Assembly (NCBI GenBank): GCA_022616275.1
Contig: JAKEFB010000033.1
Coordinates: 25,455 to 89,454 of the forward strand
DNA from: Chloroflexota bacterium
GTDB lineage: Bacteria; Chloroflexota; Anaerolineae; Promineifilales; Promineifilaceae
Direction of reading: 5' to 3'
DNA: 64,000 nucleotides
Below, piece by piece: positions 5,669 to 47,386 of the stretch. The position numbers were made by a program, and so were the translations under genes. The notes beneath the pieces were generated by a model, which did not search any database, was not told the origin of the DNA, and saw only the letters and a list, made by a program, of their open reading frames with translations. How positions within the stretch are numbered: the stretch's first letter is position 1; every line of letters starts with the position of its first letter.

Positions 5669-6283
5669 ATGGAGACAGATATCAAGGATTTGGAACAACC
5701 TCAGCCACGACCGGCGCCTGACTGGAGCGAGACTGAGCTTGTGCCCGAACAGCGGCAACCGGCCGAACTCTTCGCCCGCGAAATCATCGAGACGCTGCTG
5801 TTAACGTTATTCATCTTTTGGATTGTCAACTCAGCTACCGGCCGCTTCCGCATCGAAGGCCAGAGTATGCTGCCGACGCTTGAAGAGGGGGAGTATATTA
5901 TCATTAACAAGCTTAGTTACGCCTTTGACGAGCCGCAGCGCGGCGATATTATTGTTCTTCGCTTTCCCAACGACCGCAGCCGTGACTTTATCAAGCGCGT
6001 CATTGGCCTGCCCGGCGACGTGATCGAAGTCAGCGACAAAGAGGTCAGGGTCAATGGCGTTGTGCTGAACGAACCGTACATTCGAGCAGCGCCCACTTAC
6101 GACGGCCGTTGGACTGTGCCAGAGGGACATTATTTTGTCATGGGTGACAACCGCAATAATTCCAGTGATTCGCATAATTGGTCTTTCCTGCCGCGTGACG
6201 ACATTGTAGGCAAAGCCTGGATCATTTACTGGAGCCCCGAACACTGGGGCCTGGTGCCGCACCACCAACACAACCTGGGCTGA
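5669..6283 (+). CDS. lepB: Signal peptidase I
   Basis: The 204-residue type I signal peptidase removes signal peptides from exported proteins at the outer face of the cytoplasmic membrane. After a charged N-terminus there is one transmembrane helix (~residues 40-56). The catalytic Ser66 follows in 'EGQSMLPTL' and the general-base Lys109 in 'RDFIKRVIGLPGD'; the conserved box 'GDNRNNSSDSH' follows. The length is normal for a one-TM bacterial/Gram-positive-like enzyme. GGGAG precedes the ATG. It sits just ahead of the microcompartment genes, but this is probably positional only. Confidence 0.97.
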   Translation: METDIKDLEQPQPRPAPDWSETELVPEQRQPAELFAREIIETLLLTLFIFWIVNSATGRFRIEGQSMLPTLEEGEYIIINKLSYAFDEPQRGDIIVLRFPNDRSRDFIKRVIGLPGDVIEVSDKEVRVNGVVLNEPYIRAAPTYDGRWTVPEGHYFVMGDNRNNSSDSHNWSFLPRDDIVGKAWIIYWSPEHWGLVPHHQHNLG

Positions 6284-6301: not shown

Positions 6302-7048
6302 ATGAGCTATCAACAGGATGAGATTGCTGCGCTGGTGCGCCGGGTGGTGACCCGCACGTTGGGCCAGGCAGCCGCCCGGTCCGTGCTGGATGAAGAAGCC
6401 GTGCGCCAGATACCGGTTGGCTCGGTGCAGCCGGTCTCGCCCGGAACCATCATCACACCCCTGGCCCGGCAGGTTGCCCTGGAACGGCGCGTGAAGCTGG
6501 TCGAAGACGACCCCTCCCAGGCAGGGCCGGCCGCCGGCCCTGCCCCAGGCGAGACAGCCGCCGGCCAGCGCCTGGTCGCCCTGGGCGCCGATCATGGCGG
6601 CTACCAGTTAAAAGAGCAATTAAAAGCGGCCGTCGCCGAAGCCGGTTATGGCGTCGTTGACTGCGGCACACACAGCGCCGAGGCGGTGGACTACCCCGAT
6701 TTTGCCTACGCCGTGGCCCGCCTGGTGGCCGATGGCCGCGCCTGGCGGGGCATTATCGTAGACGGAGCCGGCATCGGCAGTTGTATGGCCGCCAACAAAG
6801 TCCCAGGCGTGCGAGCGGCCATGTGTTACGACCAGGCCACGGCCGTGAACAGCCGTGAACACAACAATGCCAACGTCCTGACGCTGGGCGCGGGCCTCAT
6901 TGGCCCCCACCTGGCCCGGCAAATTGTCCAGACCTGGCTGGCCACCGAATTTGGCGGCGGCCGGCATGCCCGTCGCGTCGCCAAAATTGACGCGATTGGC
7001 GAGCGATTTATGAGACGAGATGGCCAGATACGACCAGGCAACGATTGA
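6302..7048 (+). CDS. RpiB/LacAB-type sugar-phosphate isomerase homologue, BMC-associated
   Basis: In this 248-residue protein, residues ~1-22 form an amphipathic helix of encapsulation-peptide type ('[15 protein letters not shown]'). A linker with '[17 protein letters not shown]' follows, then an RpiB domain (~90-236): '[12 protein letters not shown]', '[10 protein letters not shown]', '[11 protein letters not shown]', '[10 protein letters not shown]'. RpiB interconverts ribose-5-phosphate and ribulose-5-phosphate. The usual catalytic Cys of the CGTGIG motif is replaced by Asp154 (DGAGIG); a Cys occurs at 161 instead. Activity or substrate may therefore differ. It overlaps deoC by 29 bp, and shell genes follow, which points to function in the compartment lumen. 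Confidence 0.88.
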
Positions 7049-7886
7049 GCGCATTATCGAGGAAGTGACCCGCGAGGTCCTGCTGCGCCTGAACCGGCCG
7101 GAACCGACCCCGGCCGGCTGCAATTGCACGGACGGCTCCTGCGCCCAACACTGCGCCGACAAGGTCGAAAAAGTCGTCCAGGCCGGCGCAGCCCGCCTCT
7201 CGGCCACCCTGGGGACCCGGCCGCATAATGACAGCGTGGCCCGCCTGATAGACCACACCTTGCTCAAGCCGGACGCCAGCCAGGACCAGATTGCCCAACT
7301 GTGCTATGAAGCCCGTACTCACCACTTTGCCTCGGTCTGCGTCAACCCGGCCCACGTCAAGCTGTGCGCCCAGTTGCTCAAAGGCTCTGACGTGGCCGTT
7401 TGCACCGTCGTCGGCTTTCCCCTGGGGGCAACCCCGGCCACCGTCAAAGCCTACGAAACGCAGCAGGCCATTCGCGACGGGGCCAGCGAAATTGACATGG
7501 TCATCAACATTGGCGCTCTCAAGTCCAAGGAGTATAAAACCGTTTACGAGGATATTGCCGCCGTCGTCCGGGCAGCGGATGCCGGCAACGCCCTGGTCAA
7601 GGTCATCATCGAGGCGGCGCTGCTGAACGACGAGGAAAAAGTCATTGCCTGCCAACTGGCCAAGGCGGCTGGGGCGGAATTTGTTAAGACTTCTACCGGC
7701 TTCGGGCCGGGCGGGGCGACTGCGGCCGACGTGGCTCTGATGCGCCGGGTGGTTGGCCCGGCGATGGGCGTCAAGGCCGCCGGTGGCGTCCGCAACTACG
7801 CAGACGCCCAGGCCCTGATCGCCGCCGGGGCAACCCGCCTTGGCGCCAGCGCCGGCGTCCGCATCGTCAAAGAGGCCAATCAATGA
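7020..7886 (+). CDS. deoC: Deoxyribose-phosphate aldolase, BMC-targeted
   Basis: The 288-residue enzyme cleaves 2-deoxyribose-5-phosphate to acetaldehyde and glyceraldehyde-3-phosphate. The catalytic domain spans ~70-286: Asp159 in 'EIDMVINIG', Schiff-base Lys223 in '[14 protein letters not shown]' and Lys252 in 'GVKAAGG'. An extra ~65-residue N-terminal part starts with an amphipathic helix ('[18 protein letters not shown]'), typical of microcompartment encapsulation peptides. Four clustered Cys (34, 36, 41, 45) follow and could bind a metal. The gene overlaps the RpiB-like gene upstream and precedes the first shell gene. It is likely the signature enzyme of the compartment. Confidence 0.96.
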
Positions 7887-7908
7887 AGTACCAAAGGAGC
7901 AATTAATT

Positions 7909-8550
7909 GTGACCGTAGAGCTTCGCAGTTACGTCTTTCTGGACAGTTTGCAACCGCAGCACGCCGCCTTCCTGGGCACAGTGGCCCGGGGCTTCCTGCC
8001 TCTGCCGGGCGACGCCTCGCTCTGGATTGAGATTTCGCCCGGTATTGAAATCAACCGGATTACCGATATTGCCCTCAAGGCCACGGCCGTCCGGCCGGGC
8101 ATGCAGATTGTGGAGCGGCTCTACGGCCTGTTGGAGGTCCACTCCGAGAGCCAGGCTGAGGTCCGGGCGGCCGGGGCGGCCATCTTGCGCGCCCTGGAAG
8201 TCCAGGAAGAAGACCGGCTCAAGCCGCGCGTCGTCTCCAGCCAGATCATTCGCAACATTGATGCTCACCAGGTCCAATTGATAAACCGGATGCGCCACGG
8301 CCATATGATCCTGGCCGGCCAGACGATGTACGTTATGGAAGTCCAGCCGGCCGCCTACGCTGCCCTGGCCGCCAACGAAGCCGAAAAGGCCGCCGACCTG
8401 AATATCCTGGAAGTCATTGCCTTCGGCAGCTTCGGCCGTGTCTACCTGGGCGGCGAAGAACGGGACATCATGGCCGGCTACCAGGCCGCGGTAGACGCCG
8501 TCGAAAGCGTCGCCGGCCGCGAAGTGGGAGGACCAAAGAGTAACGAGTAA
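7909..8550 (+). CDS. BMC-T shell protein (tandem BMC domains)
   Basis: The 213-residue protein is read as two BMC-fold halves, ~1-100 and ~105-205. The second contains the typical '[22 protein letters not shown]...[11 protein letters not shown]' helix-strand pattern. Trimers of such tandem proteins make pseudohexameric shell tiles, sometimes with gated pores. The GTG start at 7909 is chosen for AAAGGAG 10 nt upstream; an upstream in-frame extension overlaps deoC and has no such site. Sequence similarity to canonical BMC domains is weak in the first half, so the assignment leans on context as well. Confidence 0.82.
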
Positions 8551-8613
8551 TGAGGACTGAGGACTGAGGACTGAGTGAAGAATCTACTACACTCAGCCCT
8601 CAGTCCTCATCAC
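8551..8613. repeat. Heptamer array hairpin between BMC-T and BMC-H
   Basis: Three tandem GAGGACT units (left arm) are followed after ~20 nt by CTCAGCC, CTCAGTC and CTCATCA units, which pair with them. It lies within the shell operon immediately before the strong AAGGAGG ribosome site of the BMC-H gene. Confidence 0.7.
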
Positions 8614-8629
8614 TATTAAGGAGGAATTT

Positions 8630-8917
8630 ATGACGGAAGCATTGGGAATGATTGAGTGCCGCAGTTTTGCGGCGATGGTCGAGGCCTCGGATGCGATGGT
8701 CAAGGCCGCCCGCGTTGAGCTGGTAGGCTACGAAAAGACCGGCGGCGGTTTCGTCACGGCCATTGTCCGGGGGGACGTGGCCGCCGTCAAGGCCGCCGTC
8801 GAAGCCGGCATGCGCGGCGCCGAAAAGGTGGGCGAAGTGGTTTCTGTCCATGTCATCCCGCGCCCGCACGCCAACGTAGACCAGGCCCTGCCTCTCGGCC
8901 GGCAAAGCAGCGAATAA
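8630..8917 (+). CDS. BMC-H shell protein (hexamer)
   Basis: The 95-residue single-BMC-domain protein of PduA/EutM type has '[21 protein letters not shown]', '[15 protein letters not shown]' and a C-terminal '[14 protein letters not shown]' that are all diagnostic. Hexamers tile the facets of the shell and form the small-molecule pores. It is the only BMC-H in the locus, so it should be the main facet protein. It has the strongest ribosome site of the operon (AAGGAGGAATTT before ATG). Hairpin-forming arrays flank the gene on both sides, which would suit separate control of its mRNA level. Confidence 0.97.
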
Positions 8918-8996
8918 ATTTGGATTTTAGATTGCCGGTTTTGGATTTGCGTTCAATCCAAAATCTAAAATCTAAAATCTAAAATCCGAAATCGCC
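8918..8996. repeat. Heptamer array hairpin between BMC-H and BMC-P
   Basis: The left arm has TTGGATT/TTAGATT units. The right arm is a run of AAAATCT (three times) and related units (AAAATCC, GAAATCG). The arms are inverted relative to each other. The array ends directly at the ATG of the next gene, leaving no Shine-Dalgarno sequence there. Confidence 0.7.
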
Positions 8997-9320
8997 ATGT
9001 TTTTGGGTAAAGTTGTTGGCACGCTGGTTGCTTCCCGCAAAGAAGCCTCACTGGAAGGGCTGAAGTTCCTCGTCGTCCGCCGCCTGACCATTGACAACGA
9101 AGAGACCCCCGGCTACGTGGTCGCGGCCGACGCCGTTGGCGCAGGTTTGGGTGAGGTCGTTATGGTGGCCACCGGCAGCTCGGCCCGCCAGACCCGGCTC
9201 ACCGACAAGCGCCCCGCCGACGCCGTGATTATGGCTATCGTGGACACGTGGGAAGTCAACGGCGAGGAGAAATACCGGAAGGAATCCCTGCCCGAAGAGT
9301 CCTTCCCTGACGAGAGATGA
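8997..9320 (+). CDS. BMC-P shell vertex protein (EutN/CcmL family)
   Basis: The 107-residue protein starts with the family signature '[15 protein letters not shown]' and continues '[12 protein letters not shown]', '[23 protein letters not shown]' and '[12 protein letters not shown]'. Pentamers cap the vertices of the microcompartment shell. Its C-terminus has a charged extension beyond the core fold. The start is fixed by this signature, although no ribosome site is visible because a repeat array abuts it. The end overlaps the nucleotidyltransferase gene by 4 bp. Confidence 0.95.
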
Positions 9321-10213
9321 CACCGGCTACCAAACTGAAGCGAAAAGAGTTAGAACTCTTTGTCGAACGGGTCCTGTCCCACGAGTCAACAGTCGAGGGC
9401 GTGGTCGGTATTGGCAGTATAGCTACCGGCCGGATGCGCCCCGATTCGGACATAGACGCCGTCGTCTTCCTGGACCCGTTGGACTGGTACGTTGTCCCGG
9501 CCGAATTTATCTGGCGGCCGTCGGACAGCACTTTTCACAGCATTTTTACCGGCGACCCCGAGGTGCGAAGTGAAGGCATCCAGCTCAACTGTATTCGCCT
9601 GGGGCTGCGGCAATGGGCCAACCGTCTCTTTGATTGGCCGGAGCCACGCCGGGCCGAGTTGAGCGCCGGCTGGATCGTATTCGACCGTAAAGGCGTGATT
9701 GCCCCCATGATCGCCGAGCGGACGGCCTACTCGGAAATACTGCGCCAGGAGCGGCTGGACGAGGCCATTACCTGGCTGGACCAACACCTGGGTGGCGACA
9801 GGCCGGCCGTGCGCTGGGATACGTTGGGGCCGGCCGTGGCTCATGATCGGTTGGAGGCGGCCTACCATTACCTGGTCCAGGCCCTCTTTGCCTATAACCG
9901 CCACTGGCTGCCCTGGCGCAACCGGCAAATGGACAGCCTGCTGCAACTGCCCTGGCTGCCGGAAAACTTTGCCGCGCGCATGCTGCTGGCCGCTAATGCG
10001 CCCTCGGTGGATCAGAAAGGCTACCTGGCCCGCGCCGAAGAGCTGCGCAGCCTTTTTAACGACTTGCTGGAACGGTTAACCGCCGGCGGCGACTATTCGG
10101 CCGCCCCTATTGACCAGGCCTTCATCCGCGGCCACAGCGAACCGGGCTACGCCTGGAATATGGACGACTGGAACACCGAAAAGCTGCGCCGCTTCCTGGA
10201 GGATCATCTTTAA
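9317..10213 (+). CDS. Nucleotidyltransferase-fold protein within the BMC operon
   Basis: In the 298-residue protein, residues ~25-60 show the polymerase-beta-like nucleotidyltransferase motif: G33-S34 followed by D45-I-D47 ('[20 protein letters not shown]'). A helical C-terminal half ('[25 protein letters not shown]') resembles the substrate-binding part of aminoglycoside-nucleotidyltransferase-like proteins. It would transfer a nucleoside monophosphate to an unknown acceptor. The ATGA overlap with the BMC-P gene and tight packing before the aldehyde dehydrogenase show it belongs to the operon. A role in the pathway, for example nucleotidylation of a sugar phosphate or protein, is only a guess. 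Confidence 0.8.
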
Positions 10214-10238
10214 GAGGTAATTGGGTAATTGGGTAACT

Positions 10239-11708
10239 ATGTTAGACGACACCCAAATACAAGCCATCATTGACCGGGTGATGCGGGAAGTGGGCCAGAA
10301 TGCCCCACCCCCACCGCCCCCCGAGCCGGCGCGGCGTAAAAGCAACCCAGGTTACGGCGCGCCGGAGCCGGAAACGCCTGGCCAGCACGGCGTCTTTGCC
10401 ACCCTGGACGAAGCCGTGGCCGCGGCCGAGGCTGCCTTCCGCCGTCTGGATGCCCTGCCTCTGACCATTCGCAAAGACATGGTCGCCCACATGCGCCAGG
10501 CTGCCCGGGAATACGCTACCGTTCTGGCCGAAATGGCCCACAGCGAAACGGGCATGGGCCGGGTAGAGGACAAGACCTTAAAAAATATCCTCAACGCCGA
10601 TAAGACCCAGGGACCGGAGGCGCTAGAAACGGAAGCCTGGAGCGGCGACCACGGCCTGACCATCACCGAGTACGCTCCCTACGGCGTTATTGGCGCGTTG
10701 ACGCCCAGTACCAACCCCACCAGCACTGTCATTTGCAATGCCATTGCCATGGTCTCGGCCGGGAACGCCGTCGTTTTTAACGCCCACCCCAGCGCCAAGG
10801 GTTGCGCCAACACTGTTGTCCAGATTTTAAATCAGGCTATTCAGAAGGCGGGCGGCCCACCCAATCTGCTCGCCTGTGTCGCTGACCCGACCCTGGAATC
10901 GGCTACCGCTCTGATGCATCACGCCGGCATTCGCCTGCTGGTCGTCACTGGCGGCATTGGCGTCGTCCGGGCGGCCATGCAGAGCGGCAAGCGCGCCGTT
11001 TGCGCCGGGCCGGGCAACCCGCCGGTGGTGGTGGACGAAACGGCCGACGTTGAGCAAGCCGGCCGGGACGTCGTCGTCGGCGGCTCTTTTGACAACAACA
11101 TCGTCTGCACCACCGAAAAAGAGACTTTTGCCGTAGACGCCATCTGCGACCAGCTCATCGAAGTCATGACCCGCCACGGAGCGGTGAAAATCAACAGTTG
11201 GCAGTTTGAGCGGCTGTGGAAGATCGTGACCGTCAAGAGCCGGGGGCCGGGTAAGCCGGCCGACATGAACAAAGAGTTTATCGGCAAAAATGCCGGCGTC
11301 TTGCTCCGCGAGATTGGCATTTCGGCCGGGCCGGAAGCGCGCCAGATTGTTGTCGAGGTAGACCGCGACCACCCGGTGGTCTGGTCCGAGCAGATGATGC
11401 CTATTATGCCTGTGGTCCGGGTCCGCAGCGCCGACGAGGGCATTGACCTGGCTGTGGCCGCCGAGCATGGCTTTCGCCACACGGCGGTTATGCACTCCAA
11501 AAATCTGGACAATCTTAGCCGGATGGCCCGGGTCATAAATTGCAGTATCTTTGTCAAGAACGGTCCCAACCTGGCCGGTTTAGGGTATGGCGGTGAAGGC
11601 TACTGTTCTTTCACCATTGCCAGCCCGACCGGCGAGGGGCTGACCGGGCCGCGCAGCTTCAGCCGGTTGCGGCGCTGCGCCCTGATTGACGCTTTCCGCA
11701 TTGTTTAA
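10239..11708 (+). CDS. BMC-associated aldehyde dehydrogenase (PduP/EutE-like, CoA-acylating)
   Basis: The 489-residue protein begins with an encapsulation-type helix ('DTQIQAIIDRVMREVGQ') and a poly-Pro linker, then an aldehyde-dehydrogenase domain from ~50. The nucleophile is Cys290 in 'DNNIVCTTEKE'; 'ALTPSTNPTSTVICNAIAMVSAGNAVV' marks the acylating PduP/EutE/AdhE-like branch. It should convert the acetaldehyde made by DeoC to acetyl-CoA with NAD+ and CoA. ATG 10239 is chosen because the targeting helix starts there; upstream is a short TAATTGGG repeat and no clear ribosome site. Confidence 0.94.
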   Translation: MLDDTQIQAIIDRVMREVGQNAPPPPPPEPARRKSNPGYGAPEPETPGQHGVFATLDEAVAAAEAAFRRLDALPLTIRKDMVAHMRQAAREYATVLAEMAHSETGMGRVEDKTLKNILNADKTQGPEALETEAWSGDHGLTITEYAPYGVIGALTPSTNPTSTVICNAIAMVSAGNAVVFNAHPSAKGCANTVVQILNQAIQKAGGPPNLLACVADPTLESATALMHHAGIRLLVVTGGIGVVRAAMQSGKRAVCAGPGNPPVVVDETADVEQAGRDVVVGGSFDNNIVCTTEKETFAVDAICDQLIEVMTRHGAVKINSWQFERLWKIVTVKSRGPGKPADMNKEFIGKNAGVLLREIGISAGPEARQIVVEVDRDHPVVWSEQMMPIMPVVRVRSADEGIDLAVAAEHGFRHTAVMHSKNLDNLSRMARVINCSIFVKNGPNLAGLGYGGEGYCSFTIASPTGEGLTGPRSFSRLRRCALIDAFRIV

Positions 11709-11770
11709 GGGGTTGTCAGGCGCAGGACGCGCAAGATGGAACGCGGCGTCCTATTTCTTGAGGAGACAGG

Positions 11771-12298
11771 ATGGCTTATAGTCGCTTGATAAATATGGAT
11801 ATTTTTACCGACGCCTACCGGGTCACCGGCCGGGCCGAGGTGGGGGCTGGTGGCATTCATGCCGAGCTGGGCAATCCCAACACCGATTTCCTTGAGTTGC
11901 ACGAAGCCTATATCTCCCGTATCCACCAGCCAGGCGAAATTATTTCCAGTTATAAGCAAGGTTCTTTCCGCAAGGAAAACATTAACTTTATCGTTTTACA
12001 GGACAGGCGCGATGGCATTCCCGTGGGCAGCAGCCACGGCCGTTCCGTTTTCACCCGGGGGCGCTCGGCCGGCATCTTTCTGACCGTGCCCTCGTTTGAG
12101 ATCCACGGTGAGGTCATGCACGAAGGCAAGATGACCCCTGGCGCTATCCTGGTCCAGTCTATTGGCCGGTTCCAGCCCATTTTTGCGGCCAAGGCCCTGG
12201 CTTCGCTGTATCCTGACATTTCTTATAGCGGTGATTTGATCCTGGTCCACAAAGACCGGATCGGTATTTTCTGTCTCAGCAGCGGCGGAGAATTGTAA
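11771..12298 (+). CDS. Unknown 175-aa protein with internal duplication, BMC operon
   Basis: No family is firmly recognised. Two halves look alike: residues ~8-80 ('YRVTGRAEVGAGGIHAELG', 'FIVLQDRRDG') and ~105-175 ('FEIHGEVMHEGKMTPGAIL', 'LILVHKDRIGIF'). Each reads as beta strands, a helical middle and a closing 'xIxVxxDRxGI' strand. The protein is soluble and lacks a signal peptide. AGGAG precedes the ATG. It sits between the aldehyde dehydrogenase and the CpaE-like ATPase (18 bp gap), so it may work with that ATPase. Confidence 0.75.
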   Translation: MAYSRLINMDIFTDAYRVTGRAEVGAGGIHAELGNPNTDFLELHEAYISRIHQPGEIISSYKQGSFRKENINFIVLQDRRDGIPVGSSHGRSVFTRGRSAGIFLTVPSFEIHGEVMHEGKMTPGAILVQSIGRFQPIFAAKALASLYPDISYSGDLILVHKDRIGIFCLSSGGEL

Positions 12299-12316
12299 CA
12301 AAGGGAGAGTACGCGA

Positions 12317-13444
12317 GTGGCCAATATTTTCGTGATTGACGACGACGATCAGCTTCTGCGCATGGTCGGCCTTATGCTGGAACGAGGCGGCCATACGCCA
12401 ACGTTGATCAGTAATCCCGCCAAAGGGATGGAGCGAATCAAAGAAGAAAAGCCGGATTTGCTGGTCCTGGACGTGATGATGCCCGGGATGAGTGGGCACG
12501 ACGTCTGCCGACAAATCCGGGCCGACAAAGAGCTAGGCAACCTACCCATTCTGATCCTGACGGCCCGCTCTCAGGAAGTAGACCGGGTGGCTGCCCTCAA
12601 GAGCGGGGCCAATGATTACCTGAGCAAGCCGGTCACCTCCCAGGAATTAATCGAGCGGGTGGACGACCTTCTGGCGCACGGCAAATCCGGCAAGGGCGCG
12701 CCGCAAGAGGGCACTATCGTCTGCCTGATGAGCATGCGCGGCGGCGTCGGCCGGACAACGCTGGCCGTTAACCTGGCCGCCGCCCTGCGCCGCATCAGCC
12801 AGGCCGAGGTCTGCCTGGTGGACTTATCCCCTTCGGGCGGCCAGGCGGTCATGCACCTCCGGCTGCAGGCCAGGAACAACTGGGCCAACCTGCTGTCGCC
12901 TGACGGCCTGGACTGGGAAGAGCTGAAGAAAAATCTCACCATTCACCAGTCCGGGTTGCGGCTGCTGGCAGCACCCAACCTGCCCCAATCTTCTCTGACG
13001 CCCCCGGCCGACGTGACCACCGAGTTCCTGAAGCTGCTGCGGGAGAACATGGCTGCGGTGGTCATTGATTTACCGCCGATGTTGAGCCCGGCAGTGCGCG
13101 CCGCCCTGGCCGCCTCGGACATGGTCCTGCACGTGGTCACGCCGGAGGTTATTTCGGTCCAAATGGCCGTCCAGGCCAACCGGGCCTTGACGACGACCGG
13201 TATCAACTTGAAGCAGCGCTCCCACATTCTGAACCAGGTCTGGGCTGAAGCCCAATTGCCCCAGGCGGCCGTCGAGCGCGGCCTGGGCGCGCGTCTGGCT
13301 TTCCAGATTAGTTACGACGCCAACCAGCCCCGCGCTCTGGCCCAGGGTGTGCCCCTTACCTTGACCTCGGCCCAGTCGCCGCTGCCGGTCGTCATGCGGC
13401 GCATGGCCGAGGCCATCTGGCAGCGTGTTGCCCAGAGCACCTGA
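12317..13444 (+). CDS. Receiver domain fused to ParA/MinD-like ATPase (CpaE-like)
   Basis: The 375-residue protein has a response-regulator receiver domain at residues 1-~120 (acidic pocket D8-D10, phospho-acceptor D52, K104). A SIMIBI-class ATPase of CpaE/MinD type follows from ~132. Its deviant Walker A is 141-RGGVGRTT-148, in which both usual Lys positions are Arg; 'VCLVDLSPSGG' and 'AAVVIDLPPML' are the following strands. CpaE-type proteins localise machinery such as pili. Inside a BMC operon it could position or regulate compartments as McdA does for carboxysomes, which is inference. GTG start with GGGAG 9 nt upstream. Confidence 0.88.
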   Translation: MANIFVIDDDDQLLRMVGLMLERGGHTPTLISNPAKGMERIKEEKPDLLVLDVMMPGMSGHDVCRQIRADKELGNLPILILTARSQEVDRVAALKSGANDYLSKPVTSQELIERVDDLLAHGKSGKGAPQEGTIVCLMSMRGGVGRTTLAVNLAAALRRISQAEVCLVDLSPSGGQAVMHLRLQARNNWANLLSPDGLDWEELKKNLTIHQSGLRLLAAPNLPQSSLTPPADVTTEFLKLLRENMAAVVIDLPPMLSPAVRAALAASDMVLHVVTPEVISVQMAVQANRALTTTGINLKQRSHILNQVWAEAQLPQAAVERGLGARLAFQISYDANQPRALAQGVPLTLTSAQSPLPVVMRRMAEAIWQRVAQST

Positions 13445-13461
13445 ACGATCACCCTGCCCAT

Positions 13462-14049
13462 ATGGCCTATCCTGCGCTTGCCCTGCTCGAATTTAACAGC
13501 ATCGCCGCCGGCATTCAGGCTGGCGACGCCATGGTCAAGCGCGCCCCGATTGAGCAAATTCAGGCCGGAACCGTCCAGCCAGGCCATTACCTGGTCCTGG
13601 TCACCGGGGACGTGGCCTCGGTCGAGGAGGCGGTCGCCATTGGCCGGGAAGTGGGCCAGGCGACGTTACTGGACGTGGTCTTCCTGCCGGACGTCCATCC
13701 TGGGGTAGTTTCCGGCCTGGCTGGCGGCCGCGAACCGGCCGAAGCGGACGCCCTGGGTGTGGTCGAAACGCAGAGCGTGGCCGCCGCCATCCGGGCCGCC
13801 GACGCCGGCCTGAAAGGGGCTGAAGTCACCCTATGGCAGTTGCGTCTGGCCGACGGGCTGGGCGGCAAGGGGCTGGCTCTCTTTGCCGGCCTGGTAGCCA
13901 ACGTCGAGGCGGCCGTGGAAATTGGCGTCGGCCGGGTCGGCGAGCAACTGGTGCGGCAGGTAATCATTCCCCAGTTGCACGCCGAGATGCGCCAGAACGT
14001 CGCCCACAGCACCCGCTTCGGCGACCATTTTGACTGGCGCCCGGCATAA
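13462..14049 (+). CDS. BMC-T shell protein (tandem BMC domains)
   Basis: The 195-residue protein has two clear BMC domains: ~4-85 ('ALALLEFNSIAAGIQAGDAMVKRAP', 'LVTGDVASVEEAVAIG') and ~98-180 ('ALGVVETQSVAAAIRAADAGLKGA', 'FAGLVANVEAAVEIGV'). Trimers form pseudohexameric facet tiles. It differs strongly from the other BMC-T at 7909. It starts 17 bp after the CpaE-like gene with no strong ribosome site, suggesting translational coupling. A repeat array follows its stop. Confidence 0.96.
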   Translation: MAYPALALLEFNSIAAGIQAGDAMVKRAPIEQIQAGTVQPGHYLVLVTGDVASVEEAVAIGREVGQATLLDVVFLPDVHPGVVSGLAGGREPAEADALGVVETQSVAAAIRAADAGLKGAEVTLWQLRLADGLGGKGLALFAGLVANVEAAVEIGVGRVGEQLVRQVIIPQLHAEMRQNVAHSTRFGDHFDWRPA

Positions 14050-14150
14050 GGTCAGAGATTAGAGATTGGAGATTGGAGATTAGAGTTAGAGTGGTCAAGC
14101 GACTCGCAAACTTGCAAACTCGCAGACTCGCCACTCAGTCCTCAGCACTT
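14050..14150. repeat. Heptamer/octamer arrays between BMC-T and BMC-P
   Basis: GAGATTA/GAGATTG units occur four times in tandem (about 14056-14084), followed by a second array of ACTCGC-type units (period 7-8) up to the start of the next gene. Unlike the other sites the two arrays are not clear inverted copies of each other. No ribosome site remains in front of the ATG at 14154. Confidence 0.6.
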
Positions 14151-14153
14151 CTT

Positions 14154-14429
14154 ATGCAACTCGCACGCGTCATTGGTACGGTCGTCGCCACCCAAAAATA
14201 CGAGGGCCTGGAAGGAATCAAATTCCTCGTCGTCCAGCCCTTAACCCGGCAGCAGCAGCCGCTGGGCGAGCCGGTGATAGCGGCCGACGGCACGGCCCAG
14301 GCCGGGCCGGGCGAGCTGGTCTTCATCGTCGGCAGCCGCGAGGCGGCCCAGGCCATGCCCATCAAATTTGTCCCGGTGGACCACGCCATCGTCGGCATTG
14401 TGGACGACGTCCACCAGGTGGAGGAATAA
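14154..14429 (+). CDS. BMC-P shell vertex protein (EutN/CcmL family)
   Basis: The 91-residue protein starts 'MQLARVIGTVVATQKYEGLEG' and has 'KFLVVQPL', 'VIAADGTAQAGPGELVFIVGSREA' and 'VDHAIVGIVDDV', all family hallmarks. It is a pentameric vertex protein. ATG 14154 is chosen because the family signature begins there; the upstream in-frame extension is repeat-array sequence. The stop overlaps the next start by one base (TAATG). Confidence 0.94.
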   Translation: MQLARVIGTVVATQKYEGLEGIKFLVVQPLTRQQQPLGEPVIAADGTAQAGPGELVFIVGSREAAQAMPIKFVPVDHAIVGIVDDVHQVEE

Positions 14430-14698
14430 TGTACATCGGCCGGGTCGTCGGCACGGTCGTGGCCACGATCAAAGACGAAGCCTTTCGCGGCCACAAGCTG
14501 CTTCTGGTAGACCGGCTGAGGCTGGACGGCACGGCCAGCGAGGAGTACGACATTGCTATAGACGTAGTCCAGGCCGGCGTCGGCGACCGGGTGCTGGTCA
14601 TTGACGAGGGCAACGGGGCCCGGCAAATCCTCAAGCGCGACCCGGCCCCGGTCCGGGCCGTCATCGTCGGCATTGTGGACGACGTGGAAATTGCTTGA
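14429..14698 (+). CDS. BMC-P shell vertex protein (EutN/CcmL family)
   Basis: The 89-residue third vertex protein starts 'MYIGRVVGTVVATIKDEAFRG' and continues 'KLLLVDRL', 'DIAIDVVQAGVGDRVLVIDEGNGAR' and 'VRAVIVGIVDDV'. GGAGG precedes the ATG. Three BMC-P paralogues in one locus are common in larger metabolosome loci and may form mixed or alternative vertices. This is the last BMC gene; the tRNA-Glu promoter overlaps its 3' end. Confidence 0.95.
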   Translation: MYIGRVVGTVVATIKDEAFRGHKLLLVDRLRLDGTASEEYDIAIDVVQAGVGDRVLVIDEGNGARQILKRDPAPVRAVIVGIVDDVEIA

Positions 14699-19559: not shown

Positions 19560-19607
19560 AGATTGGCAACCGAGGGTTGCGCACAATCTCTAATCTCCAA
19601 TCTCCCC
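19540..19607. repeat. Heptamer array hairpin shared by two convergent gene ends
   Basis: GAGATTA/GAGATTG units on the left and AATCTCT/AATCTCC units on the right pair with each other. A small inner hairpin GGCAACC...GGGTTGC forms the tip. The array provides the last codons and stops of both flanking genes. It may act as a bidirectional terminator. Confidence 0.7.
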
Positions 19608-20861
19608 TCCCTTCTCCATCTCCTTCAACGCATCAAACGCCGGCCGCGGCGTCCCATCCGGTAGCGTAATCGCCCACCACCACTGCTCGTGCTCTTCCGG
19701 CGTCCAGTCGTAATCGGCAATGTAGACCGTGACTATCAGGCCAATCCACGGCCGCCAATTATCGGCCGCGTAGCGGTAAGCCCGCACCAGGTAGTCGGCC
19801 TGCTCTGCCTCGCTGACGGCGTGCCAGGCGTACGACGAGCCCGGCCGTGTGTCCGTCGTCCAGCCCATTTCCAGGATAGCAACCTGCTTCCCTCCGTCGC
19901 CGTTGTCCACCATCACCTGGCGCATATCCTCCACGTGGCGGAAGACGAACCACCGGCCGCCGCCGTAGTCCGGGTTGCTGGTGCCCTCTTCCGGGGACGT
20001 TTCCGGCGGGGCTTTGTAGCCGGGCGCGTTCAGCCCCAGCACGTCAAAGTAGGCCGCTGCCCCGGCGTCGTACATCCCTTGCAGGAATTCCGGGTCGGGA
20101 ATGGCATCGGGCAGCCCCGTCCCCGTGGGGGCCAGCCCGGCCGAAATGACGATCGCCTCCGGGTCGGCCGCCTTAATCGCCTGGTAGCAGACCTTGAGCA
20201 GCTCTGTGTACTCGGCCGGGTCGGGTGGCCGGTCGCCCCATTCCCGGTTCAGGTTCGGCTCGTTCCACACCTGGTAAGCGCCAATCCGCCCCCGGTATCG
20301 CCCGGCCAGCACGCCGCAAAAATCGGCAAAATCTTGCAAATTGTCGGGCGGCCGGTTTTCCCGCAATTCGTCGTTGGGCTGCGTCCAGAACGGCTGGCGG
20401 TCAATTCGCACCAGTAGCTTCAACCCCGCTTTCTCCACCGCCTCGACAATGAGGTCCGGCCGCCACCAGTCATACTTGCCCTTCTCCAGCGTTTCAATAT
20501 CCCGCCAGGCAAAAGCCTGCTTCACCCAGCCAAATTCCATCTCTTGCACCAACCCCAGGTCTCGCTCGGCAATTTCCGGCCGCCACCACAGAAACGCCTG
20601 TACCCCGTATTCCGGCGAGGCGAAGAGTCGGCTGGCGGTCTCTGAGGTGGTTGCCGTCGGCGAGGGTAGGGGTGTCGCCCGGCGTGTAGGCGTGGTTGCC
20701 GGAGAAACCGGGGACGCGGTGGCGGTCGCAGTGGCCGCCGCAGTAGGGGTCGCAGGTGTGGGGGTGACCACGAGTGCGGTGGAGGTGGACCGGCCGTAGC
20801 AGTTAGCCAGCAGCAAGAGTAGTAGGAAGAGACTCAGGCGAAAGGCAGCCGGCCGGCGCAT
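19590..20861 (-). CDS. Secreted glycoside-hydrolase-like protein (clan A type)
   Basis: The 423-residue protein has an N-terminal signal segment with Cys21 (LLANC; the Asn before Cys is unusual for a lipobox), a Thr/Pro/Ala linker (~28-75) and a TIM-barrel domain (~84-415). A likely acid/base Glu201 lies in 'YQVWNEPNL' and a nucleophile Glu331 in 'AILEMGWTT', the arrangement of clan-A families such as GH39/GH5. It probably acts on extracellular polysaccharide; substrate unknown. Two paralogues follow upstream in the same direction. Its C-terminal 'GEIGD' and stop are within the repeat array. Confidence 0.82.
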   Translation of the reverse strand: MRRPAAFRLSLFLLLLLLANCYGRSTSTALVVTPTPATPTAAATATATASPVSPATTPTRRATPLPSPTATTSETASRLFASPEYGVQAFLWWRPEIAERDLGLVQEMEFGWVKQAFAWRDIETLEKGKYDWWRPDLIVEAVEKAGLKLLVRIDRQPFWTQPNDELRENRPPDNLQDFADFCGVLAGRYRGRIGAYQVWNEPNLNREWGDRPPDPAEYTELLKVCYQAIKAADPEAIVISAGLAPTGTGLPDAIPDPEFLQGMYDAGAAAYFDVLGLNAPGYKAPPETSPEEGTSNPDYGGGRWFVFRHVEDMRQVMVDNGDGGKQVAILEMGWTTDTRPGSSYAWHAVSEAEQADYLVRAYRYAADNWRPWIGLIVTVYIADYDWTPEEHEQWWWAITLPDGTPRPAFDALKEMEKGGEIGD

Positions 20862-20940: not shown

Positions 20941-22233
20941 TCATTGCGGTTTTGGCATCTCAGCCAGGGCGGCAAAGGCCGGCCGGGGAATACCGTTGGT
21001 ATCTACGATGCTGTAAGGCACCGGGTCGTCCGTGGGGCCGTTGCTCTTGTTGCCGAAGTCAAAGTTGAAGAGAAAGGCCAGCCACACGCGGCCGGAATCG
21101 TGCATTTGCTGGAAGGCCTGGACGATAAACGTGGCCTGCTCTTCCAGGGTATTATCCTGGACAAAGCCAAAGCCCTCGGGGAAGGCGCCGTACCCTTCGC
21201 TGCTGCCCCAGCCAAATTCGGTCACGCACAACTTCTTATTGGGGTCCGCCGCCTGCACCTTCTGGGCATACGTATCTATCGTCGTCTTAAAGCTCCAACT
21301 ATGGTGGAGGTTGTCAAACGGGCCTCGGAAAGTGGCCGTGGCCGCGTTGGGGTCGGCGCTGGTCTGGTCAAACGGAACGTTGGGGCCGATGTTATAGCCG
21401 TTGTGGTGTACACCCACGCAGTCAGCGTACTTCAACAGGCCGGCCGCCAAGGCCTCGTCCAGGTAAACAAAGTCGTCGTAGGAGGTCACTCCATCGTGTA
21501 CTCCGGTCGGCGCCAGCGCCCCGCTAATGACGACAATGTTTGGGTCTACGGCTTTAATGGCCGCGTGAGCCCGCGAGAGAAAGTCCACGTAATTGGCTGC
21601 GCTCAATCCCTGAGGCGTCGCCCACTCGCGATCCAGGTTTTGCTCGTTCCAGACCTCGATGCCGTGGATCTGGCCCGGGTAACGCCGCAGCAGTTCGGTC
21701 AGAAAGTTGGCGTAGAGGCTGTAATCGTCCGGCGGGCCGTTTTCGCCGCCGGCCGCCCGGGTCCAAGCCGGCGCGCCAACCACACTAAACATCAGCCGCA
21801 GGCCAAAGTCGTTGGCCTCGTCCACCACGTCGTCGTAAAAGAACCACTGATAGGCAGCCGGATCAGGCTCGACCAGTGGCCATTCCAATTGCACTTTGAC
21901 CCAATTCATGTGCAGTTGGTTGGCAATCACGTCCATTGCCACTTCCGCGTCGCCTACCGTAGCGTGGGACTGGATGCCGTAGCCGAAGGCATTGGTTGGC
22001 CAGGGGGTAATGGGGCCGGGTGTCGGTTCCGCTGCCCCGGGCGGGGGCGGGGCGGGCGTGGGGCCTCCCTCAACCACCACCGGCGGGGGCAGCAGTGTCG
22101 GAGTCGCCCCTGAACCGGGGAACGTGGCCTGGAGGGCCGGCGTGGCCGGCGTTGCTGCGCCCGGCGCTGGCCCCCCGCAAGCCACCAGGGCCATAACCAG
22201 AGCCAGCCAGAGGATAAGGGTTGTCTTTTTCAT
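20941..22233 (-). CDS. Glycoside-hydrolase-like lipoprotein (clan A type)
   Basis: The 430-residue lipoprotein has a signal peptide ending in lipobox LVAC19 and a long Pro/Ala/Thr/Gly linker (~22-80). A TIM-barrel domain follows with Glu197 in 'IEVWNEQNLDREW' (Gln in place of the usual Pro after the Glu) and Glu339 in 'LCVTEFGWG'. It is paralogous to the neighbours on both sides. It is predicted to be anchored outside the membrane and to hydrolyse or bind a glycan. Gene order and direction suggest one transcription unit with the adjacent glycosidase genes, although hairpins separate them. Confidence 0.84.
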   Translation of the reverse strand: MKKTTLILWLALVMALVACGGPAPGAATPATPALQATFPGSGATPTLLPPPVVVEGGPTPAPPPPGAAEPTPGPITPWPTNAFGYGIQSHATVGDAEVAMDVIANQLHMNWVKVQLEWPLVEPDPAAYQWFFYDDVVDEANDFGLRLMFSVVGAPAWTRAAGGENGPPDDYSLYANFLTELLRRYPGQIHGIEVWNEQNLDREWATPQGLSAANYVDFLSRAHAAIKAVDPNIVVISGALAPTGVHDGVTSYDDFVYLDEALAAGLLKYADCVGVHHNGYNIGPNVPFDQTSADPNAATATFRGPFDNLHHSWSFKTTIDTYAQKVQAADPNKKLCVTEFGWGSSEGYGAFPEGFGFVQDNTLEEQATFIVQAFQQMHDSGRVWLAFLFNFDFGNKSNGPTDDPVPYSIVDTNGIPRPAFAALAEMPKPQ

Positions 22234-29091: not shown

Positions 29092-30396
29092 ATGGCTATC
29101 ATCAACCTGATTGAGCAAAAGCGGGATGGCGGCGAGCTGACTACGGAGCAAATCGAGTGGTTTGTCCGCGCCTACACGGCCGGCGACGTGCCCGACTACC
29201 AGGCCGCGGCCCTGATGATGGCCATTTACCTGCGCGGCATGAACCGGCGAGAAATCGTGGACCTGACGCTGGCCATGGCCCGCTCCGGCGAGCAGCTTGA
29301 CCTGCACGAAGTCGCCCCCTTCATCGTAGACAAACATTCTTCCGGCGGCGTGGGCGACAAGACCACCCTGGTCGTCCAGCCCATGGTCGCCGCCTGTGGG
29401 GTGCCCGTCGGCAAGATGAGCGGCCGCGGCCTCGGCTCCAGCGGCGGCACGCTGGATAAGATGGAATCCTTCCCGGGCTGGTCGCCCGACCTGACGCTGG
29501 AGCAATTTAAGCGCCAACTGGCTGACATTGGCCTGGTGCTGGCCGGCCAGACGGGCGACCTGGCCCCGGCCGACGGCAAACTCTACGCCTTGCGCGACGT
29601 GACCGGCACGGTGGCCAGCACACCGCTCATTGCCGCCTCGATCATGTCCAAAAAGCTGGCCAGTGGGGCCGACGCCATTGTTCTGGACGTCAAGATGGGG
29701 CAGGGGGCGTTTATGCCCACCGTCGAGATGGCTCGCGAGCTGGCCCGGATTATGGTGGACATCGGCCAGGACGCCGGCCGCCAGACAGTGGCCCTCATCA
29801 CCGACATGAACCAGCCCCTCGGCCACGCCGTCGGCAACGCCCTGGAGGTGAAAGAGGCCCTGGACACGTTGACCGGTGGCGGCCCGGCCGATTTCTGGGG
29901 CCACTGCCTGGACGTGGCCGGCTATATGCTCCTGCTGGCCGGTAAGGCCGGAACGGTGGAGGAAGCCAAGGCCCTGGCCACGGCCGCACGGGACGACGGC
30001 CGGGCGCTGGACAAATTCCGCGCCCTGGTCCACGCCCAGGGCGGCGACCCCTCCACCGTGGACCACCCAGAGCGGCTGCCCCAGGCCCGGCTGGTGGAGC
30101 CCGTCCACGCCGGGCGAGACGGCTTCCTGGCCGGCATTAATGCCCGGGCCATCGGCTGGAGCTGTGTCCGCCTGGGGGCCGGCCGGCAAGTGAAGGAAGA
30201 TACCATTGACTACGGCGTCGGCATGATCATCCCGGTCAAGGTGGGCGATCACCTGGCGGCCGGCGACTTGTTGGGGACGATTCACGCCAACGACCCGGCC
30301 AGGCTGGCCCAGGCTCGCCGGGAATTTCTCGAGGCCCTCACCTGGTCGGACGAGCCGGTCGCGCCCTTGCCCCACCTGTATGAGATTGTAGAATAA
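29092..30396 (+). CDS. Pyrimidine-nucleoside/thymidine phosphorylase
   Basis: The 434-residue family member (DeoA/Pdp) shows the phosphate-site signature 'KHSSGGVGDKTTLVVQPMVAACG', 'KMSGRGLGSSGGTLDKMES' and 'LVLAGQTGDLAPADGKLYALRDVTGTV'. It phosphorolyses (deoxy)uridine/thymidine to base plus (deoxy)ribose-1-phosphate. After phosphopentomutase, the product 2-deoxyribose-5-phosphate is the substrate of the microcompartment DeoC encoded at 7020. The length is normal and all three signature regions are intact. A weak AGAGG site precedes the ATG. Confidence 0.95.
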   Translation: MAIINLIEQKRDGGELTTEQIEWFVRAYTAGDVPDYQAAALMMAIYLRGMNRREIVDLTLAMARSGEQLDLHEVAPFIVDKHSSGGVGDKTTLVVQPMVAACGVPVGKMSGRGLGSSGGTLDKMESFPGWSPDLTLEQFKRQLADIGLVLAGQTGDLAPADGKLYALRDVTGTVASTPLIAASIMSKKLASGADAIVLDVKMGQGAFMPTVEMARELARIMVDIGQDAGRQTVALITDMNQPLGHAVGNALEVKEALDTLTGGGPADFWGHCLDVAGYMLLLAGKAGTVEEAKALATAARDDGRALDKFRALVHAQGGDPSTVDHPERLPQARLVEPVHAGRDGFLAGINARAIGWSCVRLGAGRQVKEDTIDYGVGMIIPVKVGDHLAAGDLLGTIHANDPARLAQARREFLEALTWSDEPVAPLPHLYEIVE

Positions 30397-45538: not shown

Positions 45539-47386
45539 CTATAACCCGGCCGCCCGGCTGGCAATTCGCTCCTGGACGTGGGCGATGAAAGCCCCAACCG
45601 GCACTGCCTCTTGCTGCTGGCCATCGCGCCGCCGCACGGCCACCGTCTGGCTGGCCGCCTCGCGGTCGCCGACCACCAACATATAGGGCACTTTCATCTG
45701 CTGCGCCTGGCGGATCTTGGCCCCAATCCGGCCGGCCCCCAGGTCCACTTCGGCCCGAATGCCGGCCTCCTGTAGCCGGGCCGCCACCTGGACGGCGTAG
45801 TCGTTGTGGTTGTCCGTCACCGGAATCAGCCGCGCCTGCTCCGGGGCCAGCCAGACCGGGAACGCCCCGGCATAATGCTCGATCAGAAAGCCGATCATCC
45901 GCTCGTGGCTGCCCAGCGGAGCGCGGTGAATGCACAACGGCGTCTCCAGCTCGCCCTCGGCGTTGGCAAAGACCAGGTTAAAGCGTGGCGGCTGGGCAAA
46001 GTCCACCTGGTTCGTGGCCAGCGAGAACTCCCGGCCGACGGCGCTCCAGATCTGCACGTCAATCTTCGGCCCATAAAAAGCCGCCTCATCCTCCGCCTCG
46101 TAGAAAGGCACGCCGCTCTTTTCCATAACCTGGCGGACCAATTGCTCCGTCTGCTGCCACATTTCTGGATTGTTGACGTACTTTTTGCCCAGGCCGGCCG
46201 GGCTGTGCTTGCTCAAGCGCATGGCGTACTTGTCAATGCCGAAGAGGCGGAAGTAAAACCGGTACAGCTCGATGACCTCCATAAACTCGGCCTCAAGCTG
46301 AGACCAACTGCAGTAGATGTGGCCGTCGTTTTGCTGCGCGCCGCGCACCCGCAGCAGGCCGAACAACTCGCCGCTTTTTTCGTAGCGGTAAATCATCCCG
46401 TACTCGGCCAGCCGCAACGGCAAATCCCGGTAGCTGCGCGGCTTGCTGCCAAAGATTTTGTGGTGGAAGGGGCAGTTCATCGGCCTCAGGTAATAGCGCG
46501 CCCCTTCTCTTTCCAGCGGCGGGTACATATCCTCGACGTAGTAGGGGACGTGGCCGCTGCGCCGGTATAGTTCCTCCTTGGCAATGTGCGGCGTGCGCAC
46601 CCGCTGGTAGCCCAGCCGGTCCTCTGTTTCTCGGGCCAGCCGTTCCAGCTCCTCGACGATGATCTCGCCCCGGGGCAGCCACAAGGCCAGCCCCGGCCCG
46701 ACCTCCTCGTCAAAGATGAACAGCTCCAGCTCCCGGCCGATCTGGCGATGGTCGCGCGCCTTGGCCTCTTCCAGCCGGGCCAGGTATTGCTCCAGCTCGG
46801 CCCGGCCGGGCCAGGCCGTGCCGTAGATCCGTTGCAGCATCGGCCTCTTTTCGTCACCACGCCAGTAAGCCCCGGCCACGTTCATCAACTTCAGGCCGCC
46901 GGCCGGAATTTGCCCCGTGTGTTCCACGTGCGGTCCCCGGCACAAATCCTCAAACGAATCATGGCGGTAAAGGCTGATCACCGGTTTCTCCGCCAGGGCG
47001 TTGCCGTATTCGTCCGCCTGGCCCTCGGCCAGCCCTTCGATCAGCTCCAGCTTGTATGGCTGGTCGCGGAACAGCGCCCGCGCCTCCTCAGCGCTTACCT
47101 CCCGGTACACAAATGGGTGCCAGCCGGCGATAATTTGCCGCATCCGCTCCTCAATCCGGGCCAGGTCGTCCGGCTTAAACGTCACCGTCCGGCCCGTCTC
47201 GTCTCGTCCCAGGTCGAAGTCATAATAAAAGCCATCCTCAATCGGCGGCCCAATGGCCAGCCGCGCCGCCGGGTACAGCTCCAGCACCGCCTGGGCCATC
47301 ACGTGCGCCGCCGAGTGCCGGATGCGGTACAACTCTGATTCTTCGTAAGCCACCTGCTCTATTGATAAACTATTTTCTGCTGACAT
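45539..47386 (-). CDS. Threonine--tRNA ligase, divergent second copy
   Basis: The 615-residue class II synthetase attaches Thr to tRNA-Thr. It lacks the N-terminal TGS domain. The editing domain has 'HSAAHVMAQAV' and 'CRGPHVEHTG'. The catalytic core has 'RPMNCPFHHKIF', 'LRVRGAQQNDGHIYC' and 'CIHRAPLGSHER', so the Cys-His-His zinc ligands are kept, while the surrounding residues deviate from the usual VRGF-D motif. Anticodon-binding domain at ~520-615. GGAGG 7 nt before ATG. A terminator separates it from the other thrS, suggesting separate expression. Confidence 0.93.
   Translation of the reverse strand: MSAENSLSIEQVAYEESELYRIRHSAAHVMAQAVLELYPAARLAIGPPIEDGFYYDFDLGRDETGRTVTFKPDDLARIEERMRQIIAGWHPFVYREVSAEEARALFRDQPYKLELIEGLAEGQADEYGNALAEKPVISLYRHDSFEDLCRGPHVEHTGQIPAGGLKLMNVAGAYWRGDEKRPMLQRIYGTAWPGRAELEQYLARLEEAKARDHRQIGRELELFIFDEEVGPGLALWLPRGEIIVEELERLARETEDRLGYQRVRTPHIAKEELYRRSGHVPYYVEDMYPPLEREGARYYLRPMNCPFHHKIFGSKPRSYRDLPLRLAEYGMIYRYEKSGELFGLLRVRGAQQNDGHIYCSWSQLEAEFMEVIELYRFYFRLFGIDKYAMRLSKHSPAGLGKKYVNNPEMWQQTEQLVRQVMEKSGVPFYEAEDEAAFYGPKIDVQIWSAVGREFSLATNQVDFAQPPRFNLVFANAEGELETPLCIHRAPLGSHERMIGFLIEHYAGAFPVWLAPEQARLIPVTDNHNDYAVQVAARLQEAGIRAEVDLGAGRIGAKIRQAQQMKVPYMLVVGDREAASQTVAVRRRDGQQQEAVPVGAFIAHVQERIASRAAGL

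Follow-up and report, generated by a model that had tools for sequence, protein, structure and literature searches.

Why would a bacterial microcompartment (BMC) whose probable task is to degrade the sugar of DNA carry a homologue of RpiB, the ribose-5-phosphate isomerase? This question is raised by a 64,000-nucleotide stretch of a Chloroflexota bacterium genome (assembly GCA_022616275.1, contig JAKEFB010000033.1, positions 25,455 to 89,454; hereafter the window), in which an RpiB homologue, a DeoC aldolase and an aldehyde dehydrogenase (ALDH) are encoded together with one BMC-H, two BMC-T and three BMC-P shell proteins, all on the + strand between positions 6302 and 14698. Judging from gene content and profile matches, the locus is very probably a metabolosome of the sugar-phosphate-utilising (SPU) class, in a bacterium related to Anaerolineae. 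The class is already known, and the interest lies in three features for which no description was found in the available text of the literature searched: a residue swap in the RpiB active site, a cysteine tail on DeoC, and sister sites without shell genes.

From the sequence we infer the following scheme of encapsulation, substrate and flux. Most likely, the BMC-H, BMC-T and BMC-P proteins would form a shell, with DeoC, the RpiB homologue and the acylating ALDH as its cargo. The RpiB homologue would bind a sugar phosphate and open its ring, and the ALDH would convert acetaldehyde to acetyl-CoA inside the shell.

Gene content and class of the locus

The SPU class was named in 2014, when its core was termed incomplete (PMC4207490; published work is cited here and below from the part of its text that was available). 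In the 2021 catalogue it is among the most prevalent microcompartment types: more than 280 members span 26 phyla and fall into seven subtypes, and their loci have PF01791 and PF02502 in common together with an aldehyde dehydrogenase (PMC8217296). DeoC-type PF01791, RpiB-type PF02502, an acylating-type aldehyde dehydrogenase and BMC-H, BMC-T and BMC-P genes are all found here, and both the family profiles and the published definition (PMC8217296) agree with the SPU assignment made in a first-pass annotation of the window. The enzymes and shell genes named in that annotation are all present in the interval and match their family profiles; the interval further holds a nucleotidyltransferase, a 175-aa protein and a receiver-MinD/ParA-like protein. 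The genes, in order, are:

5669..6283, + strand: signal peptidase I (PF10502, 171.4 bits), the upstream neighbour with or without shell genes
6302..7048, + strand: RpiB-like protein with an N-terminal extension of about 90 aa (PF02502, 182.2 bits; TIGR01120, 152.5 bits, cut-off 138.65)
7020..7886, + strand: DeoC deoxyribose-phosphate aldolase, N-terminal extension with a four-cysteine cluster (TIGR00126, 279.2 bits, cut-off 117.3)
7909..8550, + strand: BMC-T of the CcmP type (NF053796, 381.9 bits, cut-off 340); start picked by eye as the GTG at 7909 behind AAAGGAG
8630..8917, + strand: BMC-H shell hexamer (PF00936, 105.5 bits)
8997..9320, + strand: BMC-P shell pentamer 1 (PF03319, 98.5 bits)
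9317..10213, + strand: nucleotidyltransferase-domain protein (PF01909, 26 bits, cut-off 21), also at shell-less sites
10239..11708, + strand: EutE/PduP-type acylating ALDH with a Pro-rich N-terminal linker (NF011927, 640.2 bits, cut-off 403; PF00171, 112.6 bits); start picked by eye in a frame that opens at 10221
11771..12298, + strand: 175-aa protein, Sm/LSm-like by predicted model, with no Pfam or NCBIfam match (some relatives match DUF6812), also at shell-less sites
12317..13444, + strand: receiver domain plus MinD/ParA-like domain with a degenerate Walker A motif (RGGVGRTT), also at shell-less sites
13462..14049, + strand: BMC-T with two BMC domains and no cysteine (PF00936, 122.7 bits in two stretches; TIGR02526, 103.4 bits, below the cut-off of 250.3)
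14154..14429, + strand: BMC-P shell pentamer 2 (PF03319, 94.6 bits); ATG at 14154 picked by eye in a frame that opens at 14073
14429..14698, + strand: BMC-P shell pentamer 3 (PF03319, 91.6 bits)

The order RpiB-DeoC-BMC-T-H-P-ALDH-T-P-P was found again in relatives. All three BMC-P genes match the EutN_CcmL profile PF03319, as the first-pass annotation had anticipated. Its expectation for the BMC profile PF00936 was borne out by BMC-H and by the BMC-T at 13462, but not by the BMC-T at 7909, which scores 16.2 bits, below 24.5, and passes the NCBIfam CcmP model instead. Across the genome that holds the window (8.5 Mb, 98.25% complete), PF00936 gave three matches, all within the locus, in a search that is blind to the CcmP-like gene. 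BMC-T proteins of the PduT-like type carry an iron-sulfur pore and serve in electron transfer; the second BMC-T (13462-14049), which lacks cysteine, was rejected as a candidate for this type.

Active site of the RpiB homologue

In the window's RpiB homologue, Asp154 stands at the place of Cys66 and Ala156 at that of Thr68 (E. coli numbering; papers supply Cys66, His99, His10 and Asn100 as well as the homologous Thr and His, and other numbers are alignment labels). The catalytic loop reads DGAG, where the four closest matches among the solved relatives listed (3PH3, 3HE8 and two putative enzymes) have CGTG or CGSG. The same swap is found throughout the SPU-linked homologues that could be aligned, comprising the window and 39 further loci (L136, L137 and L145 were left out as too short): Asp occupies the Cys66 place in 40 of 40, and the Thr68 place holds Ala in 39 and Val in one. 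Asp9, His10, the DY pair, the ring-opening His99, Asn100, His134 and the phosphate-binding Arg137 are invariant; the other phosphate-binding residue, Arg133, is kept in 39 proteins and stands as an undetermined X in one, and the place of Glu75 of the Mycobacterium tuberculosis enzyme (MtRpiB), a column matched by our own count, is Ser in all 40.

The swap follows linkage to the other SPU genes. Among 32 RpiB loci, all 20 that are linked to DeoC or BMC-T, a set that includes the window and genomes already among the 40 aligned, carry the Asp-Ala pair, and all 12 unlinked ones carry Cys (11 called by pattern, L166 by eye). The unlinked set comprises the two further PF02502 genes of the window's own genome, both with Cys at the Cys66 place, and ten others; 36 of 68 PF02502 matches, linked or not, were left out of this comparison. 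Searched as DNA, a nine-residue RpiB signature was found in 22 of 400 genomes of the phylum, with none for the reversed control among the matches listed. An RpiB match was present at 21 of these 22 loci, 20 of them with an adjoining DeoC (L218 ends before the DeoC position, and L210 has neither an RpiB nor a DeoC match). No viral contig matched the signature, and among plasmid records matching the window's RpiB (218, with 25 listed) none covered more than 80% of the query and all were below 60% identity.

2-Deoxyribose 5-phosphate has no 2-hydroxyl, and aldose-ketose isomerisation on this sugar is impossible. Since it could not be isomerised, and since the catalytic base is replaced while the ring-opening residues are kept, we tentatively propose that the SPU RpiB is no longer an isomerase and may instead act as a ring-opening mutarotase that passes the open-chain aldehyde to DeoC inside the shell. 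If true, this role would explain an 'isomerase' in a pathway without an isomerisation step. In characterized relatives, ring opening has been tied to His99/His102 and to His138, the latter being partly disputed (PMC4783025, PMC3755991).

A serious competitor, which we regard as plausible though short of probable, is that the homologue is still a true aldose-ketose isomerase that uses Asp as its base on ribose 5-phosphate or another sugar phosphate, in which case the compartment would also take ribose. The protein passes the rpiB equivalog cut-off of TIGR01120 (152.5 against 138.65), its binding and ring-opening residues are retained, and a carboxylate base has a precedent in Glu75 of MtRpiB (PMC4783025, PMC3755991). 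However, Thr68, the proposed shuttle of the proton between O1 and O2, is lost in all 40 proteins, and in published work the Cys mutants C69S of Leishmania, C69A of T. cruzi and C65A of LacB were inactive, although none of them is a Cys-to-Asp change, while T67A in LacB was about 20-fold lower (PMC4783025, PMC3755991). In addition, none of the locus genes was recognised as a user of ribulose 5-phosphate, and the genome's two further PF02502 genes already provide RpiB proteins with Cys. Relocation of the base Cys within the protein is disfavoured, since a Cys after Ser160 is absent in two of the 40, all of which have the Asp. The window's RpiB homologue is thus unlikely to be a ribose-5-phosphate isomerase of the textbook kind.

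No discussion of the SPU RpiB active site was found in the available text of PMC4207490 and PMC8217296, which were also the only papers found to join 'microcompartment' and 'RpiB' among the best 20 of 403 literature hits. SPU chemistry has so far been read from annotation. The RpiB residue pattern makes the role of this protein testable with one purified protein.

Extensions of the cargo enzymes

RpiB, DeoC and ALDH all carry N-terminal extensions, which are candidate sites for encapsulation peptides (an amphipathic helix followed by a linker). That of DeoC consists of a predicted helix (residues 6-24, modelled at block means of 43-50 pLDDT), a four-cysteine stretch and a second helix, followed by the catalytic domain. 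At least four cysteines are present in the extension of 42 of 47 full-length shell-linked DeoCs (the window's own uncounted) versus none of seven shell-less ones; the shell-linked exceptions are L085, L137, L142, L145 and L150, and two more shell-linked rows are short (L086, at a contig end, and L154). Four shell-less DeoCs from the window's family begin near the catalytic domain, without the long tail. No four-cysteine extension was found on the RpiB (0/35) or ALDH (0/21) proteins measured. Cysteine spacing varies across 56 DeoCs, with CxCx4Cx3C in 24, CxxCx3Cx3C in nine, a ferredoxin-like CxxCxxCxxxCP in two, another pattern in four and none in 17. In the phylum sample, the 20 DeoCs beside the RpiB signature have four cysteines in 16 cases, three in one and two in three; for the 11 outside the window's class the counts are ten with four and one with three, and of the nine within it, four (the window included) overlap the earlier sample.

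Flux, recycling and substrate supply

The first-pass annotation had described the locus as complete and had proposed a flux from deoxyribose 5-phosphate to acetaldehyde and glyceraldehyde 3-phosphate, with acetaldehyde then converted to acetyl-CoA. The family profiles and the published SPU definition fit this flux, and the named enzymes and shell genes are in place, but several observations count against the scheme and against completeness. The proposed flux contains no step for RpiB, nor is there an obvious substrate for it in the DeoC-ALDH route. A phosphotransacylase was not recognised among the locus genes, and the 98.25% complete genome gave no match to either PduL (PF06130) or Pta (PF01515); in 14 control genomes, PF06130 matched in two and PF01515 in ten. 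There is no alcohol dehydrogenase among the locus genes, and four iron alcohol dehydrogenase matches (PF00465) lie elsewhere in the genome. Recycling of CoA and NAD in the style of Pdu and Eut is therefore not evident, and must either differ from these systems or rely on enzymes that escape these searches. The ALDH motif NxxCTxE occurs in the window and in 30 of 56 relatives tested; the remaining 26 lack this spelling. Finally, residues 1-70 of DeoC were modelled at block means of 34-50 pLDDT, so that metal binding by the tail is a guess and an ordered metal site in it is unsupported.

The DeoC of the locus is the only one found in the genome, since the other of its two PF01791 genes is of the tagatose-bisphosphate-aldolase type (NF009498, 295 bits, cut-off 184). 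About 14 kb downstream of the locus, a gene at 29092-30396 (+) encodes a pyrimidine-nucleoside/thymidine phosphorylase (TIGR02644, 546.7 bits, cut-off 409), the genome's sole PF07831 match, which could be a source of deoxyribose 1-phosphate.

The resident genes and the positioning question

The 175-aa protein appears to be a tandem LSm-like protein, its predicted model resembling the Sm/LSm fold, and by sequence its family gave a single match to solved structures (E 0.2); a literature search for DUF6812 found no paper. Of 199 relatives, 69 carry its gene and 85 have a PF00936 match, with both in 33, the 175-aa gene only in 36, BMC only in 52 and neither in 78 (Fisher p 0.30). Within the window's family, taken as 53 genomes (G000-G052), a weak association was found (both in 22, the gene only in seven, BMC only in 11, neither in 13; p 0.045). 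Named relatives with the protein are Anaerolineae, Ardenticatenaceae and other Chloroflexota metagenome-assembled genomes (27 loci).

The 175-aa gene is present in 29 family genomes: in 17 it lies inside an SPU locus (two of these, L070 and L071, on short contigs), and in 12 no recognised shell gene surrounds it. At these 12 shell-less loci the receiver-ParA gene follows it in every case, with the signal peptidase in 11, the nucleotidyltransferase in nine and a short DeoC in four. PF00936 is absent from seven of the 12 genomes and lies on other contigs in five. In four of the five these genes belong to a different type, whose BMC-H is no more than 65% identical and which has neither a DeoC nor a CcmP-like match; the fifth (G023) has one such BMC-H on a contig of 5.5 kb. 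Conversely, nine family genomes have an SPU locus and no match to the 175-aa gene. In the shell-less genomes the dN/dS of these genes was 0.05-0.14 where computable, with many pairs saturated and several within one genus, and they look to be under purifying selection. Since the LSm-like and receiver-pseudo-ParA genes occur without shell genes, they are not simply parts of the microcompartment; together with the nucleotidyltransferase they probably form a separate resident block rather than required shell parts. Four loci (L073, L220, L222, L224) carry another microcompartment type, in relatives that have no SPU genes at their signal peptidase site, with BMC-H at most 65% and ALDH 47-49% identical to the window's and no DeoC match.

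The receiver domain of the ParA-like protein has kept its acidic residues, the phospho-acceptor Asp and the Lys. Across the Walker A motifs of 36 proteins, Arg always replaces the first lysine, and the second is kept in three (L034, L039, L058); as a ParA ATPase, the protein is likely to be either non-functional or unusual. Matches to the TIGR03815 and BcsQ models fell below cut-off. Elsewhere in the genome, a single protein aligned with most of the window's receiver-ParA protein, at 35% identity. We take its layout, a receiver followed by a MinD/ParA-like domain, to be CpaE-like.

Positioning ATPases of the McdA type have a deviant Walker A motif with a signature lysine. It is conceivable, though we hold it quite improbable, that the receiver-ParA and LSm-like proteins form an McdA/McdB-like pair that positions the microcompartment. 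The pair does lie between shell genes in those 17 of 29 family genomes and beside them in some other families (L051, L090, L091), the LSm-like gene shows the weak family association with PF00936, and ParA genes have been found in other BMC loci (PMC4207490). Against this stand the lack of association over the 199 genomes, the 12 family genomes in which the pair is shell-less and has a dN/dS of 0.07-0.14 where synonymous sites are unsaturated, and the replaced Walker A lysines. The Walker A residues and the occurrence without shells thus disfavour a positioning system, and the data caution against reading an enclosed ParA-like gene as one. Elsewhere among SPU loci, a stand-alone receiver is encoded among shell genes at L075 (12668-13036), and a receiver with a cyclase-like domain, recognised by eye, at L133 (12392-13519) and L142 (7719-8771).

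Origin of the shell-less sites

In DeoC trees the shell-less DeoCs are scattered: L037 groups with L063 (93/93) and L038 with L055 (100/100), and L053 is sister to the shell-linked L090 (100/97). The trees imply four changes in all, at least two of them forced by starred branches, and most inner branches are weak. We read the pattern as loss of the shell together with loss of the DeoC tail, a direction that the tree alone does not give. Alternatively, shell genes might have been inserted piecewise into an older block of signal peptidase, DeoC, nucleotidyltransferase, LSm-like and ParA genes, instead of being lost from an ancestral SPU locus. Tree change counts cannot separate gain from loss, and the signal peptidase and LSm-like genes are also linked at shell-less sites in other families of the class (L041, L044, L045, L047, L053). 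This alternative nevertheless seems unlikely, given the placement of the L053 DeoC beside that of L090, and because the interleaving of the shell, RpiB and ALDH genes with the resident genes would need several separate insertions. Relatives that lack shell genes and have, at a similar site, a DeoC without the tail offer a natural contrast for the effect of encapsulation.

Other features of the window

Two adjoining threonyl-tRNA synthetase genes lie at 45539-47386 and 47544-49373 (-), both above the TIGR00418 cut-off (620.6 and 716.4 bits). Two adjoining, similar-looking lipoprotein-like proteins are encoded at 19590-20861 and 20941-22233 (-); they appear glycoside-hydrolase-like by eye and have no NCBIfam match.

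Comparison with known systems

With described SPU metabolosomes (Axen 2014; Sutter 2021) the locus shares RpiB-type PF02502, DeoC-type PF01791, the aldehyde dehydrogenase, BMC-H, BMC-T and three BMC-P genes; compared with the catalogue text, it additionally encloses the nucleotidyltransferase, the LSm-like protein and the receiver-pseudo-ParA. Anaerolineae are named as a host class for SPU6, but a CcmP-like BMC-T is placed in HO, MIC3, SPU2 and SPU3 (PMC8217296), and the presence of such a protein here, by the text of that catalogue, points away from SPU6 and towards SPU2 or SPU3. The EutE/PduP-type acylating aldehyde dehydrogenase and the shell protein types are common to EUT and PDU metabolosomes, from which the locus differs in that no B12 enzyme, PduL, alcohol dehydrogenase or PduS was recognised in it. 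One BMC-T resembles CcmP of the beta-carboxysome, above the NCBIfam equivalog cut-off, whereas neither Rubisco nor carbonic anhydrase was recognised among the locus genes; CcmP-like proteins occur in several metabolosome types (PMC8217296).

The receiver and MinD/ParA-like layout recalls McdA/ParA positioning ATPases and CpaE/TadZ-like proteins, yet the window's protein has both Walker A lysines replaced and occurs without microcompartments. Likewise, the RpiB homologue shares its family, the phosphate-binding Arg, the ring-opening His and the Asp-His pair with RpiB isomerases (3PH3, 3HE8 and others), and is set apart from them by an Asp for the catalytic Cys and an Ala for the Thr.

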